Below, in pieces: positions 4,037 through 54,311 of a stretch of 64,000 nt of DNA. The stretch is from positions 43,573 to 107,572 of the forward strand of contig JAFURZ010000003.1 in the NCBI GenBank assembly GCA_017480785.1. The letters run 5' to 3'. The position numbers and the translations under genes were made by a program. Origin of the DNA: Bacteroidales bacterium (GTDB lineage: Bacteria > Bacteroidota > Bacteroidia > Bacteroidales > P3). The notes beneath the pieces are model-generated. The model saw nothing but the letters and a program-made list of their open reading frames with translations, was not told where the DNA came from and made no database searches. Within the stretch, counting starts at the first letter, position 1. Every line of letters begins with the position of its first letter.

Positions 4037-4134
4037 CATAAAAAACCGATACTACGGCGCATAATCGGTAACAAAACTTAAACATTGTTGGTACCCAATG
4101 TGCTAAGTAATACAACCCCCTACTTCCTCTGGGA

Positions 4135-4225
4135 TTTTTACGGTAGTATTACGCTAGTATTACGGTAGTATTACGCTTTTAAAGCGTAATACTACCGTAA
4201 TACTACCGTAATACTACCGTAAAAA
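4135..4225. repeat. 11-nt phased palindromic array B1
   Basis: Seven consecutive 11-nt units between TTTTTAC and GTAAAAA: GGTAGTATTAC, GCTAGTATTAC, GGTAGTATTAC, the centre GCTTTTAAAGC, then GTAATACTACC three times. The centre is itself exactly 11 nt, so the register never breaks. The whole is an almost perfect inverted repeat able to form a hairpin of about 45 bp. It lies between the divergent pyrK and giant surface-protein promoters. A G-rich stretch follows at 4239-4260. A related, degraded array is at 37358-37426. Confidence 0.92.
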
Positions 4226-4360
4226 TGGCGGAGGATGTGGGGGGCAGAGGGGGGGAGGGGTCGCGGCTGTGCTTGTCGTTTTTTTGACGCGTTTGCCCTG
4301 TGGCAGGGTTCTTTGTGAGTTCTGTTTTGGAAAAAATGTGTGTTTTTCCTCTGAAAAAAA

Positions 4361-4424
4361 AACACGAATGCCCACGAATTTACCATTAATTATTAATGGG
4401 CAATTCGTGGGCATTCGTGTTTTA
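4361..4424. repeat. 10-nt phased inverted repeat E1
   Basis: Two 30-nt arms (4361-4390 and 4392-4421) around a single-base centre, differing from a perfect inverted repeat at two positions. The units CACGAATGCC, CACGAATTTA, and on the far side ATTCGTGGGC, ATTCGTG recur every 10 nt. Related copies are at 44998-45060 and 50968-51036. Confidence 0.88.
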
Positions 4425-4465
4425 ATGTTTTTTTCATACGTCTGTGTTTAAAATAATTTTTATTG

Positions 4466-16852: not shown

Positions 16853-16951
16853 CTACTCATCGCCTACTCTCACATTACTCTTCGCCTTGACAAAATTTAC
16901 TTGAGTAGGCAATAAGTAGGCGGGAAGTACGTTATGAATAGTGGTTAAGTA
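16853..16951. repeat. 11-nt phased array A1
   Basis: Ninety-nine bases that divide exactly into nine 11-nt units. The left units begin CTACT or TTACT (CTACTCATCGC, CTACTCTCACA, TTACTCTTCGC) and the right units end AGTA or AATA (TTACTTGAGTA, GGCAATAAGTA, GGCGGGAAGTA, CGTTATGAATA, GTGGTTAAGTA). The sequence drifts but the spacing does not. It ends 17 bp before the DUF6266 gene. Copies A2-A4 are at 27545, 31380 and 44339. Confidence 0.85.
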
Positions 16952-16968
16952 ATATAAAATATATCATT

Positions 16969-17748
16969 ATGGCAAAGCAATGGGGTAGTTATCTGGGAGG
17001 CTTCTCGGGGAAGCTGGGGCCCGCGGTGGGCTATATGTGGAACGGAATCTGGGTGATGCGCAGCCGTCCCGCGATGGTGCGCAACCCGCGTACCGAACGG
17101 CAGGTGGAGCAGCGCATGCTCTTCAAGCAGGAGGTGCAGCTGGCGGCCAAGATGCGCCGCGGGGTGAACCAGGGGCTCACCGCCCTGGCGCGGCTGGCGC
17201 ACATGACGGCGTACAACCTGTTTGTGAGCCTCAACCAGCGCTGTTTCGGCAGTGCGGACGGACAGTTGACGGTCGACTGGCAGGGCCTGACGCTCAGCGA
17301 GGGGCCGGTGGCGCCGGTGCTGTTCGGCGCGCCGGTGGTCGACGAGGACAACGTGCTGACGGTGGAGTTCGACCGCAACGGGGGTGCGCGGCGGGCGCGG
17401 GCCTTCGACCGGGTGTACCTCTACGTCTATTGTCCCGAGCGGGGCGAGGGGCTGCTGACGGCGCCGGTCGAGCGTGCAGACCGCCGCGTGAGGGTGGCCC
17501 TGCCCGACTGGTTTGCCGGCAAAGCGCTGGAAATCTACGGATTTGTGCAGAATGAGCAGGGCGAGGGGTCGCCGACGGCGTACATTCCTTTCGGTGAGCA
17601 GACCGAGGTGGAGACTGGGCCGGAGGCAGCGGTTGCTTCGGTGCAAACAGCTGGTGAACAGTATGTTCCGGTGAATGTAGGTGTCGATGCCGCCCCTGCC
17701 GGTGCGACGGAGGGTTCAAAACGGACGAAACCGAAGGATGCGGGGTGA
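16969..17748 (+). CDS. DUF6266 family protein
   Basis: A 259-residue protein opening MAKQWGSYLGGFSGKLGPAVGYMW, the typical start of the Bacteroidota DUF6266 family. NPRTERQVEQRMLF follows near residue 40. The middle holds two beta-rich repeats, and the C-terminal 40 residues are low-complexity, rich in Ala, Glu, Pro and Thr. There is no signal peptide and no known function. Members often occur in variable regions, and this copy is unusually GC- and Arg-rich compared with its neighbours. An 11-nt array directly precedes it and may contain or replace its promoter. Confidence 0.8.
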   Translation: MAKQWGSYLGGFSGKLGPAVGYMWNGIWVMRSRPAMVRNPRTERQVEQRMLFKQEVQLAAKMRRGVNQGLTALARLAHMTAYNLFVSLNQRCFGSADGQLTVDWQGLTLSEGPVAPVLFGAPVVDEDNVLTVEFDRNGGARRARAFDRVYLYVYCPERGEGLLTAPVERADRRVRVALPDWFAGKALEIYGFVQNEQGEGSPTAYIPFGEQTEVETGPEAAVASVQTAGEQYVPVNVGVDAAPAGATEGSKRTKPKDAG

Positions 17749-27544: not shown

Positions 27545-27743
27545 CTACCCTGCCACTACTCATCCACTACTCATCGCCTACTATTCTAGGAGTATAGTAG
27601 ATGATGGGTAGGAGATGAGTAGGAGATGGTGTTTCTCATCAGTTGATTTTCAGGCAATTGGAAATGGGCGATTTTGGGGTTTTTTCGCGTCTTTTCTCAA
27701 AAAAAACGATACGTTTGCAAGCGGTTGACTATCAGCGATTAAT
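27545..27743. repeat. Full-length 200-bp element with 11-nt array A2
   Basis: 27545-27629 is an 11-nt array: CTACCCTGCCA, CTACTCATCCA, CTACTCATCGC, CTACTATTCTA, GGAGTATAGTA, GATGATGGGTA, GGAGATGAGTA, GGAGATGG. A non-coding tail follows, containing GGGCGATTTTGGGGTTTT and, 170 nt from the start, TTGCAAGCGGTTGAC...TCAGCGA. The same tail occurs at the same distance in the copy at 31380. It contains a possible -7 box TACGTTTG at 27710-27717. Together with 27744-27926, where I see nothing further, it fills the gap before the next gene. Confidence 0.8.
27710..27717 (+). promoter_or_regulatory. Possible -7 box inside element A2
   Basis: TACGTTTG followed by CAAG. It matches TAnnTTTG, but the aligned position in the sister element at 31380 lacks the box, so it may be a chance match. 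If real, the leader of the downstream T9SS gene is about 200 nt. Confidence 0.35.
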
Positions 27744-31379: not shown

Positions 31380-31579
31380 CTACCATCAGCCTACTCTTCG
31401 CCTACTCGGGTAGGTGATGGGTAAGGGAAGGGTAGGAGATGAGTAGGAGTTGAGTAAGAGATGGTGCCTACAGGATGCTGATTTACACCGAGTTGCAGAA
31501 GGGGCAATTTTGGGGTTTTCTGGAGGAAATGACGGATTTGTGCGAAGGGGTTGCAAGGGCTTGACGTTCAGCGAGGTGA
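31380..31579. repeat. Full-length 200-bp element with 11-nt array A3, upstream of recA
   Basis: 31380-31464 reads CTACCATCAGC, CTACTCTTCGC, CTACTCGGGTA, GGTGATGGGTA, AGGGAAGGGTA, GGAGATGAGTA, GGAGTTGAGTA, AGAGATGG in exact 11-nt register. The tail has GGGGCAATTTTGGGGTTTT and TTGCAAGGGCTTGAC...TCAGCGA at 171 nt from the start, matching A2 across about 200 bp. It ends about 30 nt before the recA -7 box. Nothing else is seen between the terminators and recA. Confidence 0.82.
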
Positions 31580-35455: not shown

Positions 35456-36098
35456 CCCCGAGACCGACAGCCAGCCCCGGCAGGACACGGAGGCTTTCGC
35501 CCGCCTGAGCGCCATCCTCGACACCCTGCGCACCGAATGCCCGTGGGACCGCCGGCAGACCATGAAGAGCCTGCGCTACCTCACCATCGAGGAAGTGCAC
35601 GAGCTCAGCGAGGCCATCGTGGCCGGCAAGGCCGACGAAATCAAGAAGGAGCTGGGCGACTTGGCCATGCACGTACTCTTCTACTGCAAGCTGGCCGAAG
35701 AGGCAGGACTCTTCTCCACCGCCGATGTCTACAACACCATCTGCGAGAAGCTCATTGCGCGCCACCCCTTCATCTACCACAAGGACCAGTATCACGGCGA
35801 GAGCTGGGAGCAGCTGAAGATGCGCGAGCGCGACCACCGCAATGTGCTCGACGGGGTACCCGACTCGCTCCCCTCGCTTGTCAAAGCTGTGCGCATGCAG
35901 GAGAAGGTGGCCGGAATGAGCGGAGAGTGGAAGGCGGAGAGTGGAGAGTGGAAAGAGGAGATGAACGAGGAGGAGTTCGGCGACTACCTCTTCGGACTCG
36001 TCGACTGGGCACGCCGCCACGGCATCAATGCCGACGACGCCCTCTGCGGAGCCAACCTCCGTTTCAAGAAGCAACACGAAAACAACAAACCCGCATAA
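35427..36098 (+). CDS. mazG: Nucleoside triphosphate pyrophosphohydrolase MazG, second domain altered
   Basis: A 223-residue MazG. The N-terminal domain is intact, with CPWDRRQTMKSLRYLTIEEVHEL and the metal-binding KKELGDLAMHVLFY. The inter-domain part keeps the usual HPFIYHKDQYHGESWEQLK. In the second domain MQEKVAGM is followed at residues 165-178 by SGEWKAESGEWKEE, encoded by a 7-nt array, and then by the conserved FGDYLFGLVDWARRHGINADDAL. The GFDW...EExxE helix expected between them is missing, so the C-terminal active site, which is the catalytic one in E. coli MazG, is probably damaged. ATG 35427 chosen; a TTG precedes it. Confidence 0.9.
   Translation: MESKKCTAYNPETDSQPRQDTEAFARLSAILDTLRTECPWDRRQTMKSLRYLTIEEVHELSEAIVAGKADEIKKELGDLAMHVLFYCKLAEEAGLFSTADVYNTICEKLIARHPFIYHKDQYHGESWEQLKMRERDHRNVLDGVPDSLPSLVKAVRMQEKVAGMSGEWKAESGEWKEEMNEEEFGDYLFGLVDWARRHGINADDALCGANLRFKKQHENNKPA
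35920..35959. repeat. 7-nt tandem array F2, inside mazG
   Basis: Units CGGAGAG/TGGAAGG/CGGAGAG/TGGAGAG/TGGAAAG at 7-nt spacing, in frame with mazG and encoding a Glu/Trp/Ser/Gly/Lys peptide. Confidence 0.88.
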
Positions 36099-37326: not shown

Positions 37327-37357
37327 CCCCCTGGTCGACCCCCTGTCGCCTCTGCCA

Positions 37358-37426
37358 TTTTTACGGTAGTATTACGGTAGTTCAACTACAGTTCGACTTG
37401 AAAAAGCGTAATACTACCGTAAAACG
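37358..37426. repeat. 11-nt phased array B2
   Basis: TTTTTAC then GGTAGTATTAC, GGTAGTTCAAC, TACAGTTCGAC, TTGAAAAAGCG, TAATACTACCG, TAAAACGG. Left units share AGTnnnAC and the right side mirrors them. It is a degraded relative of B1 at 4135, located after ribBA where it could end transcription. Confidence 0.8.
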
Positions 37427-42880: not shown

Positions 42881-43432
42881 ATGAGCATGGAAGACATCAT
42901 ACAACAAGCCGTCACCGCCTTGGCGCAAGGCGGCGTCATCCTCTACCCGACGGACACCATCTGGGGCCTCGGCTGCGACGCCCGCAACGCCGCCGCGGTG
43001 GATAAACTCTACGCCATCAAGGAGCGCGACCACTCGAAAAGCATGCTGGTGCTGGTGGAAAGTGGAAAGTGGAAAGTGGAAAGTGGAGAGCGGCCGACGA
43101 CCTATATCCTGCCACGGTCGGTGTGGCACGATGCGATGCACCTCGAGGTAGCCCCCAACCTGCCGGCCGACGACGGCTCGCTGGGCGTCCGCCAGCCGCG
43201 GCATGCCTTCTGCCAGGAGCTCATACGCCGCCTCGGCGCCCCGCTGGTCAGCACCAGCGCCAACCTCAGCGGCCATCCGTCGCCGCAGTCTTATAATGAA
43301 ATAGAAGAGGAATTGCGCCGCCGCGTCGACTACTGCGTGCCGCCCCTGCCGGAATTCCTTTCGGGCGAGACCCGCGGCAGCCGCATCGTCAAGGTCAACC
43401 CCGACGGCAGCGAGACCGTCATACGGCCGTAG
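42881..43432 (+). CDS. tsaC: L-threonylcarbamoyladenylate synthase (YrdC/Sua5 domain)
   Basis: A 183-residue enzyme making threonylcarbamoyl-AMP for tRNA t6A. Landmarks are GGVILYPTDTIWGLGCDARN, the Lys/Arg site KERDHSKSMLVL, DGSLGVRQPRH and PLVSTSANLSGHPSP. Residues 58-71 (VESGKWKVESGERP) are encoded by a 7-nt array placed directly after SMLVLV. Homologues I know have a longer helical segment there, so part of the fold has been replaced. The ATP, threonine and bicarbonate sites named above look intact. Start at ATG 42881; the promoter excludes the upstream extension. Confidence 0.92.
   Translation: MSMEDIIQQAVTALAQGGVILYPTDTIWGLGCDARNAAAVDKLYAIKERDHSKSMLVLVESGKWKVESGERPTTYILPRSVWHDAMHLEVAPNLPADDGSLGVRQPRHAFCQELIRRLGAPLVSTSANLSGHPSPQSYNEIEEELRRRVDYCVPPLPEFLSGETRGSRIVKVNPDGSETVIRP
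43054..43093. repeat. 7-nt tandem array F3, inside tsaC
   Basis: Four perfect GGAAAGT units followed by GGAGAGC, in frame with tsaC. Because 7 and 3 share no factor, any frame gives the same cyclic heptapeptide (VESGKWK). Confidence 0.92.
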
Positions 43433-43913
43433 CCAGCGCCGCCACCGTGTCGGGCAGGCCGCAGGCGAGGTTCTGCACCGCTACATCGCCGCCGTCCAGC
43501 GCGTGGACCAGGCTTCCAAACCCTTTAATCCCTGTGCCGCGGCATTTCAGAGCCGCTTCTTTGCGCGTCCACAGCTGCAGGAACGCCATGGTGGGGTCGT
43601 CGCTGCGGTCGATGGTCGCCAGCTCGTCGGCCGTACACACCCGCTCCATCATCCCCCGGCCTACCCGCCGCCGGCCCTCCACATCGATGCCCACCGGCCC
43701 GTCAGCGCTGACGGCCGCCGCCACGGCCGTGCGGCTGTGGCTCAGGCTCACGTGCAGCTCCGGGTGGCCGGGCAGGTAGGGGGCGCCATGCCCGTCATGC
43801 TCCACCTCGACGGTGAAGCCCAGCAGCCGCTCCAGCAGCTGCCGGGCCGCCGCGCTCTGCTCGGCATGGGTTCTCCACTCTCCGCTCTCCACTCCCCACT
43901 CGGCATGTATCAT
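43419..43913 (-). CDS. 4'-phosphopantetheinyl transferase, Sfp type, short N-terminus
   Basis: A 164-residue enzyme that transfers the CoA pantetheine arm to carrier proteins such as AcpP. The core motifs are VGIDVEGR (Mg and CoA site) and WTRKEAALKCRGTG (WxxKEA). LHVSLSHSRTAVAAAV is the usual first strand. The N-terminal half typical of this family is cut to about 50 residues and includes WGVESGEWRTH, encoded by a 7-nt array. The ATG (43911-43913) overlaps the DUF3467 stop by 4 bp, which supports this start. It is convergent with tsaC with a 14-bp overlap. Confidence 0.85.
   Translation of the reverse strand: MIHAEWGVESGEWRTHAEQSAAARQLLERLLGFTVEVEHDGHGAPYLPGHPELHVSLSHSRTAVAAAVSADGPVGIDVEGRRRVGRGMMERVCTADELATIDRSDDPTMAFLQLWTRKEAALKCRGTGIKGFGSLVHALDGGDVAVQNLACGLPDTVAALATAV
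43871..43900. repeat. 7-nt tandem array F4, start of the phosphopantetheinyl transferase
   Basis: CTCCACT, CTCCGCT, CTCCACT, CCCCACT at 7-nt spacing; read on the minus strand as GTGGAGA-type units near the gene start. Confidence 0.85.
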
Positions 43914-44338: not shown

Positions 44339-44423
44339 CTATTCTTCGCCTACCTAACTCCTACTGAACTAGGCTTTTAGTAGGCGTTGAGTAGGGGAAG
44401 AGTAGGAGATGAGTAGGAGATGG
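44339..44423. repeat. 11-nt phased array A4
   Basis: CTATTCTTCGC, CTACCTAACTC, CTACTGAACTA, GGCTTTTAGTA, GGCGTTGAGTA, GGGGAAGAGTA, GGAGATGAGTA, GGAGATGG, in exact 11-nt register. A short remnant of the A2/A3 tail follows (GGGGCATTTTTG near 44446), after which homology is lost. From 44460 to 44710 the sequence is G-rich with no gene or repeat that I can see. Confidence 0.85.
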
Positions 44424-45081: not shown

Positions 45082-45645
45082 ATGGCAACAACCACCGACA
45101 TTAAGAACGGCCTTTGCATCAATTTCAACAACGACATCTACACCATCGTTGAGTTCCTCCACGTGAAGCCCGGCAAGGGCGCCGCCTTCGTGCGCACCAA
45201 GATGCGCAATGTGAAGACCGGCCGCATGCTGGAGAACACCTTCCCCAGCGGTGCCAAGATTGACATCGTGCGCGTGGAGCGCCGCCCCTACACCTACCTC
45301 TACAAGGAGGGCGACATGCACGTCTTCATGCACACCGAGACCTACGAGCAAATCTACATCCCCGAGGCTATCATCAACGCCCCGCAGTTCCTGAAGGACG
45401 GCCAGTATGTGGAAATCACCGTCGAGGCCGACACCGAGACGCCGCTCATCTGCGAGCTGCCGCCGTTCATTGAGACCGTCGTCACCTACACCGAGCCCGG
45501 CTTCGCCGGCAACACGGCCACCAACGCCATGAAGGACGCCACCGTGGAGCCCGGCGTGCAGGTCCGCGTGCCCCTCTTCATCAAGGAAGGCGAGCGCATC
45601 AAGGTCGACACCCGTACCGGCGAGTATGCCGAGCGCTTGAAATAA
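45082..45645 (+). CDS. efp: Elongation factor P
   Basis: A 187-residue three-domain factor relieving ribosome stalling at proline stretches. The tip loop [14 protein letters not shown] has Lys32 at the position that is modified in many bacteria; no modification gene is seen nearby. [21 protein letters not shown] and [23 protein letters not shown] mark domains II-III. Full length. A 7-nt array begins just after the stop. Confidence 0.95.
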
Positions 45646-45646
45646 T

Positions 45647-45733
45647 AGTGGAAAGATGAAAGTGGAAAGTGGAAAGATGAAATTGGAAAGTGGAAGGTCG
45701 AGACTCTCAACTTTCCACTTTCCGCTTTCCGTT
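45647..45733. repeat. 7-nt array F5 in both orientations
   Basis: Left part GTGGAAA / GATGAAA / GTGGAAA units, right part CTTTCCA / CTTTCCG units; together an inverted repeat. It covers the space after efp and the first 26 codons of the glutaminyl-cyclase-like gene. The two halves can pair and would enclose the start codon of that gene in a hairpin. Confidence 0.88.
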
Positions 45734-46702
45734 TTGCTCTTGCTGCTCCTGCTGGCAGGCTGCAAGCATAAGGAGCCGGTGCGGCAGCCGCTGCCGTCGA
45801 CCGACTACACCCAGGTGGCCGTGCCGGCCTTCTCGGCCGACTCGGCCTACGCCTTCGTCGAGGCCCAGCTGGCCTTCGGCCCCCGCATTCCCGGCAGCAA
45901 GGCGTGGAGCCAGTGTGCCGACTACCTGACGGCCCGGATGCGCCGCTGGTGCGACACGGTGATGGTGCAGGACTTCCACACCACCCTGTGGGACGGCAGC
46001 ACGGTGCCCGGCCGCAACATCATCGCCTCGCTCAATCCCCGAGCCCCCAAGCGCATACTCCTGGCCGCCCACTGGGACAGCCGCCGCTGGGCCGACCACG
46101 ACGCCGACCCCGACCTGCAGCGTAGCCCTGTGCCGGGTGCCAATGACGGTGCCAGCGGCGTGGCCGCACTCATGGAGATGGCGCGCACGATGAGCGCCAT
46201 GCCGCCCTCGGTCGGCGTGGACTTCATCTTCTTCGACGTCGAGGACCAGGGCGTGGCCGACTGGAGCGAAGCCTACGACGAGCACTCCTGGTGCAAGGGG
46301 TCGCAGTATTGGGCCGACAACCGCCACGTGCCTTTCTACACGGCGGTCTACGGCGTGCTGTTCGACATGATAGGCACCCCTGAGCCGCGCTTCACCAAGG
46401 AGTACATCAGCCGCCAGTATGCCCCCGGTCTCGTCGACAAGCTGTGGCAGTGCGCCACGGCCCTCGGCTACGGCCACATCTTCGTCAGCCAGAACACAGA
46501 CCCCATCCTCGACGACCACCTCTACGTCAACCAGCGGGCCGGCATCCCCATGGTCGACATCGTGCAGAACAGCCCCCACACCAGCTTCTTCTCCCACTGG
46601 CACACCACCACCGACGACCTGCAATCGGTCAACGCCGACGCCCTCCGCATCGTGGCCACCGTGGTGATGAAGACCCTCTATGCCGACTACCCGAATGAAT
46701 AA
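45656..46702 (+). CDS. M28-family glutaminyl-peptide cyclotransferase-like lipoprotein
   Basis: A 348-residue lipoprotein. Zinc-enzyme landmarks are LLAAHWDSRRWADHD (His, Asp), PGANDGASGVAALMEMA, FIFFDVEDQG (Glu and Asp) and SFFSHWHTTTDD (His). The overall layout (FGPRIPGSKAW, WCKGSQYW) is that of bacterial type II glutaminyl cyclases such as that of Porphyromonas. It would convert N-terminal Gln of exported proteins to pyroglutamate. The lipobox is LAGC, but residues 1-26 of the signal sequence (MKVESGKMKLESG... LSTFHFPLSV) are encoded by a two-way 7-nt array. Start at ATG 45656 or 45677. Confidence 0.88.
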   Translation: MKVESGKMKLESGRSRLSTFHFPLSVLLLLLLLAGCKHKEPVRQPLPSTDYTQVAVPAFSADSAYAFVEAQLAFGPRIPGSKAWSQCADYLTARMRRWCDTVMVQDFHTTLWDGSTVPGRNIIASLNPRAPKRILLAAHWDSRRWADHDADPDLQRSPVPGANDGASGVAALMEMARTMSAMPPSVGVDFIFFDVEDQGVADWSEAYDEHSWCKGSQYWADNRHVPFYTAVYGVLFDMIGTPEPRFTKEYISRQYAPGLVDKLWQCATALGYGHIFVSQNTDPILDDHLYVNQRAGIPMVDIVQNSPHTSFFSHWHTTTDDLQSVNADALRIVATVVMKTLYADYPNE

Positions 46703-53615: not shown

Positions 53616-53696
53616 GAAAGCCCTGAAAGGGCGGCAATCGATAGCCGTGGGCTCACGCCCACGGCTAACATATATCGCCCACTCCGTGGGCTATTC
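53616..53696. repeat. Compound hairpin repeat
   Basis: GCCCTGAAAGGGC, then AGCCGTGGGC / GCCCACGGCT (53643-53652 and 53657-53666, TCAC loop), then CGCCCACTCCGTGGGC. Several overlapping stem-loops between two minus-strand genes; probably a dispersed repeat seen widely in Bacteroidota, and usable as a terminator. Confidence 0.65.
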
Positions 53697-54206: not shown

Positions 54207-54234
54207 GTCCCAGCAAAAAGCGTGCCAGCCCCCA

Positions 54235-54311
54235 CCAACGACTTGTCAACGACTTACCATCGACTTACCATCGACTTACCACCGACTACCACGGTGGTAG
54301 TCGATAGGTGG
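54235..54311. repeat. 11-nt phased array C
   Basis: Exactly seven 11-nt units: CCAACGACTTG, TCAACGACTTA, CCATCGACTTA twice, CCACCGACTAC, CACGGTGGTAG, TCGATAGGTGG. CGACT on the left is mirrored by AGTCG on the right, with centre CCACGGTGG. Same layout and period as arrays A and B but different letters. Confidence 0.88.

Follow-up and report, generated by a model that had tools for sequence, protein, structure and literature searches.

Phased arrays of 11-nt units and their association with DUF6266 genes in Bacteroidales

The A1 array and its surroundings

The window, by which we mean the whole 64,000-nt stretch of DNA that was analyzed, belongs to a genome of 2.25 Mb in 19 contigs (G000). Array A1 lies in it between a purN-type formyltransferase gene on the minus strand and a DUF6266 gene, which begins 18 nt downstream of the array, across a gap of 17 nt (Table 1). 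The match of this gene to PF19781 scores 71.5 bits, compared with a curated cut-off of 23.4. It is followed by two genes that we take from their sequences to be acpP and then fabF. Among named records, FabF comes closest to that of Bacteroidales bacterium UBA3834 (89%). At the gathering threshold, the only family found with Rfam was Acido-Lenti-1, which matches both strands at 53619-53692, away from A1.

Table 1. Positions of the arrays and associated features in the window
Feature	Positions	Strand	Description
H element	4126..4234		Near-perfect palindrome (109 nt) built of 11-nt units TAATACTACCG; left end degenerate
Array A1	16853..16951	+	Nine 11-nt units, polarity switch in unit 5
A1 left arm	16853..16896	+	Direct units CTACTCATCGC, CTACTCTCACA, and TTACTCTTCGC plus degenerate CTTGACAAAAT
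A1 center unit	16897..16907	+	TTACTTGAGTA; perfect palindrome TACTCGAGTA in several relatives
A1 right arm	16908..16951	+	Four units, ending in AGTA, AGTA, AATA, and AGTA
Promoter-like motif	16910..16933	+	CAATA-N15-CGTT, inside the A1 right arm; putative promoter
DUF6266 gene	16969..17748	+	PF19781, 259 aa, Pfam E 9.2e-20
A2	27545..27629	-	Solo A-family copy that lacks one left unit; outer limit approximate
A3	31390..31464	-	Solo A-family copy upstream of recA; outer limit approximate
A4	44340..44423	-	Solo A-family copy; outer limit approximate
Diverged H-type element	37357..37424		Recognized by eye
D-family array	54227..54310		Unit GACTTACCATC, also found upstream of the G000 DUF6266 gene at L221

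The first-pass annotation had described A1 as nine 11-nt units with a reversal of polarity in the middle of the array. The coordinates and arithmetic are correct, the 99 nt being 9 x 11, and the polarity does switch inside unit 5 (TTACTTGAGTA), which has both the TACT of the left side and the AGTA of the right. TACT is found at offset 2 in units 1, 2, 3, and 5 and is missing from unit 4 (CTTGACAAAAT), and AGTA ends units 5, 6, 7, and 9, with AATA at the end of unit 8. Counted from the CAATA of the promoter-like motif, the C/TTAC steps of the left arm are at -57, -46, and -35.

The in-phase TACT and AGTA score of A1 is 8, the highest in the window. Shuffled sequence, a comparison proposed in the first-pass annotation, did not approach this value: the maximum was 3 in 200 dinucleotide shuffles of the window and 4, reached once, when the intergenic region (249 nt) was shuffled 5000 times, and unit lengths of 9, 10, 12, and 13 gave 2-4 in the real window, although the words were drawn from A1 itself and the test favors A1 to that extent. 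Plain 11-nt self-identity misses A1 (17 of 33 positions, with lag 10 equal), and A1 is not listed by Tandem Repeats Finder at score 30. Both results follow from the spacing having been kept while the sequence changed. A1 stands out through its phased cores and its relatives. Its strand-fold is weak (z -2.09, with 6 of 200 shuffles as good, using DNA parameters). The idea of a strong stem was rejected, none having been found on folding, and the register of the array thus does not require a hairpin.

The left arm and center of A1 are upstream of the promoter-like motif. The form CAATAA-N13-ACGTT occurs at 18 places in G000, compared with two for a reversed control, and a similar excess is seen in the majority of the 79 genomes scanned in the genus. 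We rejected the idea that it is specific to DUF6266, as it is common too in genomes of the genus that have no DUF6266 gene; it is possibly a genus-wide promoter type that has not yet been assigned. An ATG followed by an open frame of at least 60 codons occurs within 90 nt downstream in 26 of 30 loci, a count made without a control. The array was also rejected as a fixed part of the purN-acpP site, because locus L060 has neither a DUF6266 gene nor an array at that site. Among 30 purN-acpP loci, only those on the plus strand being shown, other array words are present in some species and none in others.

Conservation of A1 and association with DUF6266 genes

The sister species G062 keeps A1 before the orthologous DUF6266 gene, with 15 substitutions in 99 positions and no indels. 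Over six genes of the neighborhood, DUF6266 among them, 190 of 698 4-fold sites have changed, a higher proportion than in A1 (P 0.003). The lower substitution rate in A1 is only modest, given that the adjoining 110 nt upstream differ from G062 at 26 sites.

The number of DUF6266 copies is 10 in G000 and 39 in another genome. A third genome, G048, has 27 DUF6266 genes (loci L277-L285 and L259), of which 16 or more carry a common leader in differing contexts. In nine that were compared, the leader and domain are conserved and the tails are fast-changing; the leaders diverge by 7.4% and the 4-fold sites by 21.7%, and the similarity of the leaders could owe something to gene conversion. The idea that the DUF6266 genes of this genome belong to an amplified unit with a sharp right end was rejected, as the tails fade gradually.

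For a wider comparison we defined a lag-11 array as at least 22 of 33 matching positions within 300 nt, a threshold set after arrays had been seen, with thresholds of 20 to 24 agreeing in direction. Such arrays occur upstream of 41 of 98 DUF6266 genes and 31 of 501 other genes, the latter lying in the window or in one of 28 stretches, each about 20 kb long; the background rate is probably raised, because several of these stretches are on contigs with an array match. Downstream, the counts are 2 of 71 DUF6266 genes and 23 of 512 others. The 98 distinct upstream regions are part of all DUF6266 matches, and 32 of them, including 16 with arrays, came from hand-picked stretches. With the hand-picked loci left out, arrays remain in 25 of 66 (5/20, 13/28, and 7/18 by source, the best other lag giving 0, 4, and 1). 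When the proteins were grouped at 50% identity, arrays were present in most members of 16 of 40 groups, compared with 4 of 40 for the next lag. The next commonest steps in the 98 regions after 11 nt were 10 nt (seven regions) and 7 nt (six). The other 57 regions, including that of A1, are below the threshold of 22.

Leaders of paralogs in G000 and in other species have CCATCTC, 11-nt steps, a TACTCGAGTA-like center, GGCAATAA, and ACGTTATG. CAATA-N15-CGTT is found in 33 of the 98 upstream regions. Among the 19 of these that are classed here as A-type, 18 have the step at -57, which in 15 is joined by one at -46. Outside the genus, DUF6266 was found in 9 of 47 genomes, and 12 of 22 loci, two of them repeats of one upstream region, reach 22 matching positions within 400 nt; these are spread over five families. 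The array words before DUF6266 genes outside the genus include TACTGGAGTTG and TTTAAGCGTTA, both inverted, and ACACGTATGAA and CCGTATCAAGT.

For the DUF6266 protein itself, Pfam gives DUF6266 only and no transposase family, no HUH motif was seen on reading the sequence, and no relatives with a solved structure were found by sequence. A phage origin of the gene was considered and rejected, there being no PHROG match and no viral contig with the peptide patterns of the query. Our literature search, which had most subscription journals outside its reach, found no paper on DUF6266.

Solo copies and other array families

Members of the A family also occur away from DUF6266 genes. With one mismatch allowed, CCATCTCYTACTCAWC is found at 11 places in G000, divided by position into three DUF6266 leaders and eight solo copies; A1 is outside this count, being too diverged at that end. 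By hand assignment, G068 has eight leaders and nine solo places, and G048 has 43 exact places, made up of 16 leaders and 27 solo copies. We fetched 20 solo places (12 from G048, five from G000, and three from G068). Over 78 columns their mean divergence is 28.7%, with 315 departures from the majority base, and none of the 20 has an inner gap in any of three gapped alignments that also contained A2, A3, and A4. The sole gapped row is A2, to which one of these alignments gives an 11-nt gap. Inspection by eye shows A2 to be short of one left unit, with its center shifted by one unit; A3 and A4 fit the layout. The gapless solo copies at this divergence, together with the absence of exactly one unit from A2, indicate that spacing is kept while sequence drifts, as the first-pass annotation had proposed for A1. 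It had named register-breaking indels as the contrary observation; these were sought in the G062 ortholog, the solo copies, and the H palindromes described below, and none was found.

Most solo copies have a CTGAWWNYCAG-like motif, seen by eye, about 13 nt before the array, and their gene contexts are mixed. Hardly any shuffle folds as well as A2 or A4 (z -3.97 and -3.06, DNA parameters). A-family matches are present in 29 of 79 genomes of the genus and range from 0 to 110 per genome. In a set of 41 genomes, none of the 12 that have no DUF6266 gene has more than one A-family match, and all seven with at least three matches have DUF6266, kinship not having been removed from either count. The segment 27441-31545 of the window (about 4.1 kb), with A2 and A3 near its ends, is missing in G062, where 39 nt separate the flanks. 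Its genes match a T9SS sorting tail and an OMP barrel only weakly, under the cut-off.

The H family has the same step and a different form. Its members are true palindromes with conserved, mirrored ends (CCTCYRCCA/TGGYRGAGG), and the ends alone find 26 places in G000, not counting among those listed the window copy in Table 1, whose left end is degenerate. Lengths for 25 listed of these 26 places are 109 nt (22 places), 98 nt (two), and 87 nt (one), differing by whole 11-nt units. Complementarity holds for 638 of 648 pair cells in 12 full-length copies, whose unit variants mirror each other in 74 of 84 variable cells (60 on average and at most 70 in shuffles). H is a strong hairpin (z -15.75). 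Both orientations to genes occur in 16 copies, and H has no DUF6266 partner among the DUF6266 upstream regions examined. H is absent from G062 and G068 at the L020 locus and from G062 at the L014 locus; neither an exact empty site nor a target-site duplication was obtained, the flanks at these two loci being too diverged to define a junction. G062 has two H relatives with similar ends and other unit words. A long inverted repeat, ACACGAATGCCCACGAATT...AATTCGTGGGCATTCGTGT, occurs at 4355-4425, with similar sequence in L169 and L220.

A TACT/AGTA scan of the kind suggested in the first-pass annotation gave a divided result. In G000 it found 50+56 matches, compared with 0+0 for the reversed pattern, most of the matches listed belonging to the H family. 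The TACT pattern was matched in 60 of 118 relatives; in several relatives the reversed-word control was higher, above all in G068 (85+52, compared with 8+8 for TACT). TACT is therefore not the generally kept core that had been supposed. The view that every 11-nt array has a fixed TACT core was rejected, many families having other words and no TACT. By eye, several genomes have a word that is common to a DUF6266 upstream region and to arrays elsewhere in the same genome: A and D in G000, TACTGGAGTTG in G075, TGTTCTTCGAT in G028, CAGGCATCAAC in G068, and GGATATGCTTA in G010. Over 61,625 noncoding bases from the window and 20 stretches, lag 11 gave 18 clusters, lag 22 gave 11, and every other lag from 4 to 30 gave at most seven.

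Short tandem repeats of 7, 8, 9, and 11 nt are numerous in these genomes. Heptamer direct repeats (GTGGAAA, AAAGTTG, and others) occur in the window at 1826-1865, 35927-35963, 43048-43096, 43870-43906, and 45645-45741. They are found also in many of the sampled stretches of the genus, some overlapping reading frames, and recall the TAACTGA heptamers (PMC4679880).

Interpretation and comparison with known systems

We give about an even chance to A1 being a cis-acting DNA control region of the downstream DUF6266 gene, with one candidate protein site per helical turn of 11 bp. The sites would be mirrored about the TACTCGAGTA-type center and in phase with CAATA-N15-CGTT, the putative promoter. A protein binding cooperatively along one face of the DNA would need the spacing more than the exact words, and we propose that this could be why the sequence drifts while the 11-nt register stays. 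The solo copies may be additional sites for that protein, or they may derive from leaders. The control-region interpretation is favored by the position of the array 17 nt from the gene, the enrichment at DUF6266 genes upstream only, the register to CAATA, and the lower divergence. It is weakened by the 57 of 98 upstream regions under the threshold and by the frequency of CAATAA-N13-ACGTT where there is no DUF6266 gene. It is weakened as well by the solo copies, which outnumber leaders in G000 (8:3) and G048 (27:16) and have mixed contexts, and by the folding of A2 and A4 and the strong hairpin of H, which shares the 11-nt step.

The main alternative is that the arrays are mobile DNA of the REP/REPIN or MITE kind, small palindromic elements copied around the genome, with DUF6266 and its matching leader as partner or carrier, as RAYT is for REPs. 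We think this possible, if somewhat unlikely. The dispersed families with defined ends are what such an element would give, above all H, with its mirrored ends at 26 places in G000, its mirrored unit variants in 12 copies, and its variable presence at L020 and L014. The range of A-family matches (0 to 110 per genome) and the unit words common to solo arrays and DUF6266 upstream regions within one genome point the same way. However, DUF6266 shows neither a transposase family in Pfam nor an HUH motif on reading, the H loci have yielded no target-site duplication or exact empty site, their flanks having diverged, and H has no DUF6266 partner among those examined. A1, moreover, has kept its place in both species compared and has changed less than the 4-fold sites. 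The control-region and mobile-element readings may each hold for different array families.

A-form RNA has a step of 11, and this figure would suit an RNA element, transcribed from the array, that folds or binds a protein once per turn. The complementary arms of H and the good folding of A2 and A4 (DNA parameters) are consistent with such an element, which we nevertheless consider very unlikely for A1: the promoter-like motif comes only after the left arm and center, the folding of A1 is poor (z -2.09), and the next commonest step, 10 nt (7/98), would fit the pitch of DNA. Neutral debris of minisatellite slippage, lying before genes by chance, is a most improbable source of the arrays, even with so many short tandem repeats of 7, 8, 9, and 11 nt in these genomes. 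Enrichment upstream and not downstream of DUF6266, the absence of inner gaps from 20 solo copies that diverge by 28.7% on average, and a lower level of change than at 4-fold sites (in A1 compared with G062 and in the G048 leaders) all argue against it. For A1 itself, a slippage minisatellite was rejected, as neighboring units are not near-identical (best 11-lag identity, 17/33).

The iterons of parC are 11 bp in length, with a promoter between the two sets. Among the closest known systems is parC of plasmid R1, bound by ParR (PMC4949242). Unlike that system, A1 has no ParR or ParM gene among its named neighbors (purN-type, DUF6266, acpP, fabF), and the arrays here are many, are on contigs with chromosomal genes, and have inverted arms. 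The proteins that bind operators of the OmpR/PhoB type are winged-helix response regulators. These operators, with a 7-bp motif and a 4-bp spacer extendable to trimers and tetramers, share the 11-bp step and strict spacing; they are direct repeats only, whereas the polarity of A1 flips in unit 5 (PMC4832192). TAACTGA heptamers, which occur also in a few Bacteroidetes, are likewise short, many, and intergenic direct repeats whose length changes are mostly of whole units, but they consist of one fixed 7-nt word that is nearly always direct (PMC4679880).

REP/REPIN-RAYT systems resemble the H and A families: their members are inverted extragenic pairs, dispersed and able to form hairpins, and their families are tied to specific genes (PMC3116915). 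The repeat here differs in being an 11-nt tandem unit of free sequence, and the linked gene, DUF6266, differs from RAYT in showing no sign of an HUH/Y1 transposase. H resembles MITEs in its terminal inverted repeats, a likeness not established for A1. The BrickBuilt and 464/PgRS elements of Porphyromonas gingivalis are similar in being MITE-like, having tandem repeats inside and small inverted repeats at their ends; the portion of the report at hand gives direct units of 23 or 41 nt and describes no 11-nt step, polarity switch, or gene partner (PMC4596501).

A literature search on 11-bp or 11-nt repeats in Bacteroidetes or in intergenic regions, outside which most subscription journals lay, brought up no paper that describes these arrays, judging from titles and the openings of abstracts. 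DUF6266 genes and 11-nt arrays might constitute a new gene-and-site system in the Bacteroidales, a suggestion that we regard as decidedly unlikely. Each lineage would have its own word and cognate solo arrays, and only the step, the mirrored layout, and the pairing of gene and word would be inherited.

Because only spacing is kept, elements of this kind are missed by tools built on sequence identity. The arrays tie DUF6266, a large gene family, to a definable DNA signal. If the pairing of gene and word is true, the family would provide naturally matched proteins and sites with which DNA recognition could be read out or, alternatively, a REP-like system with no known transposase.
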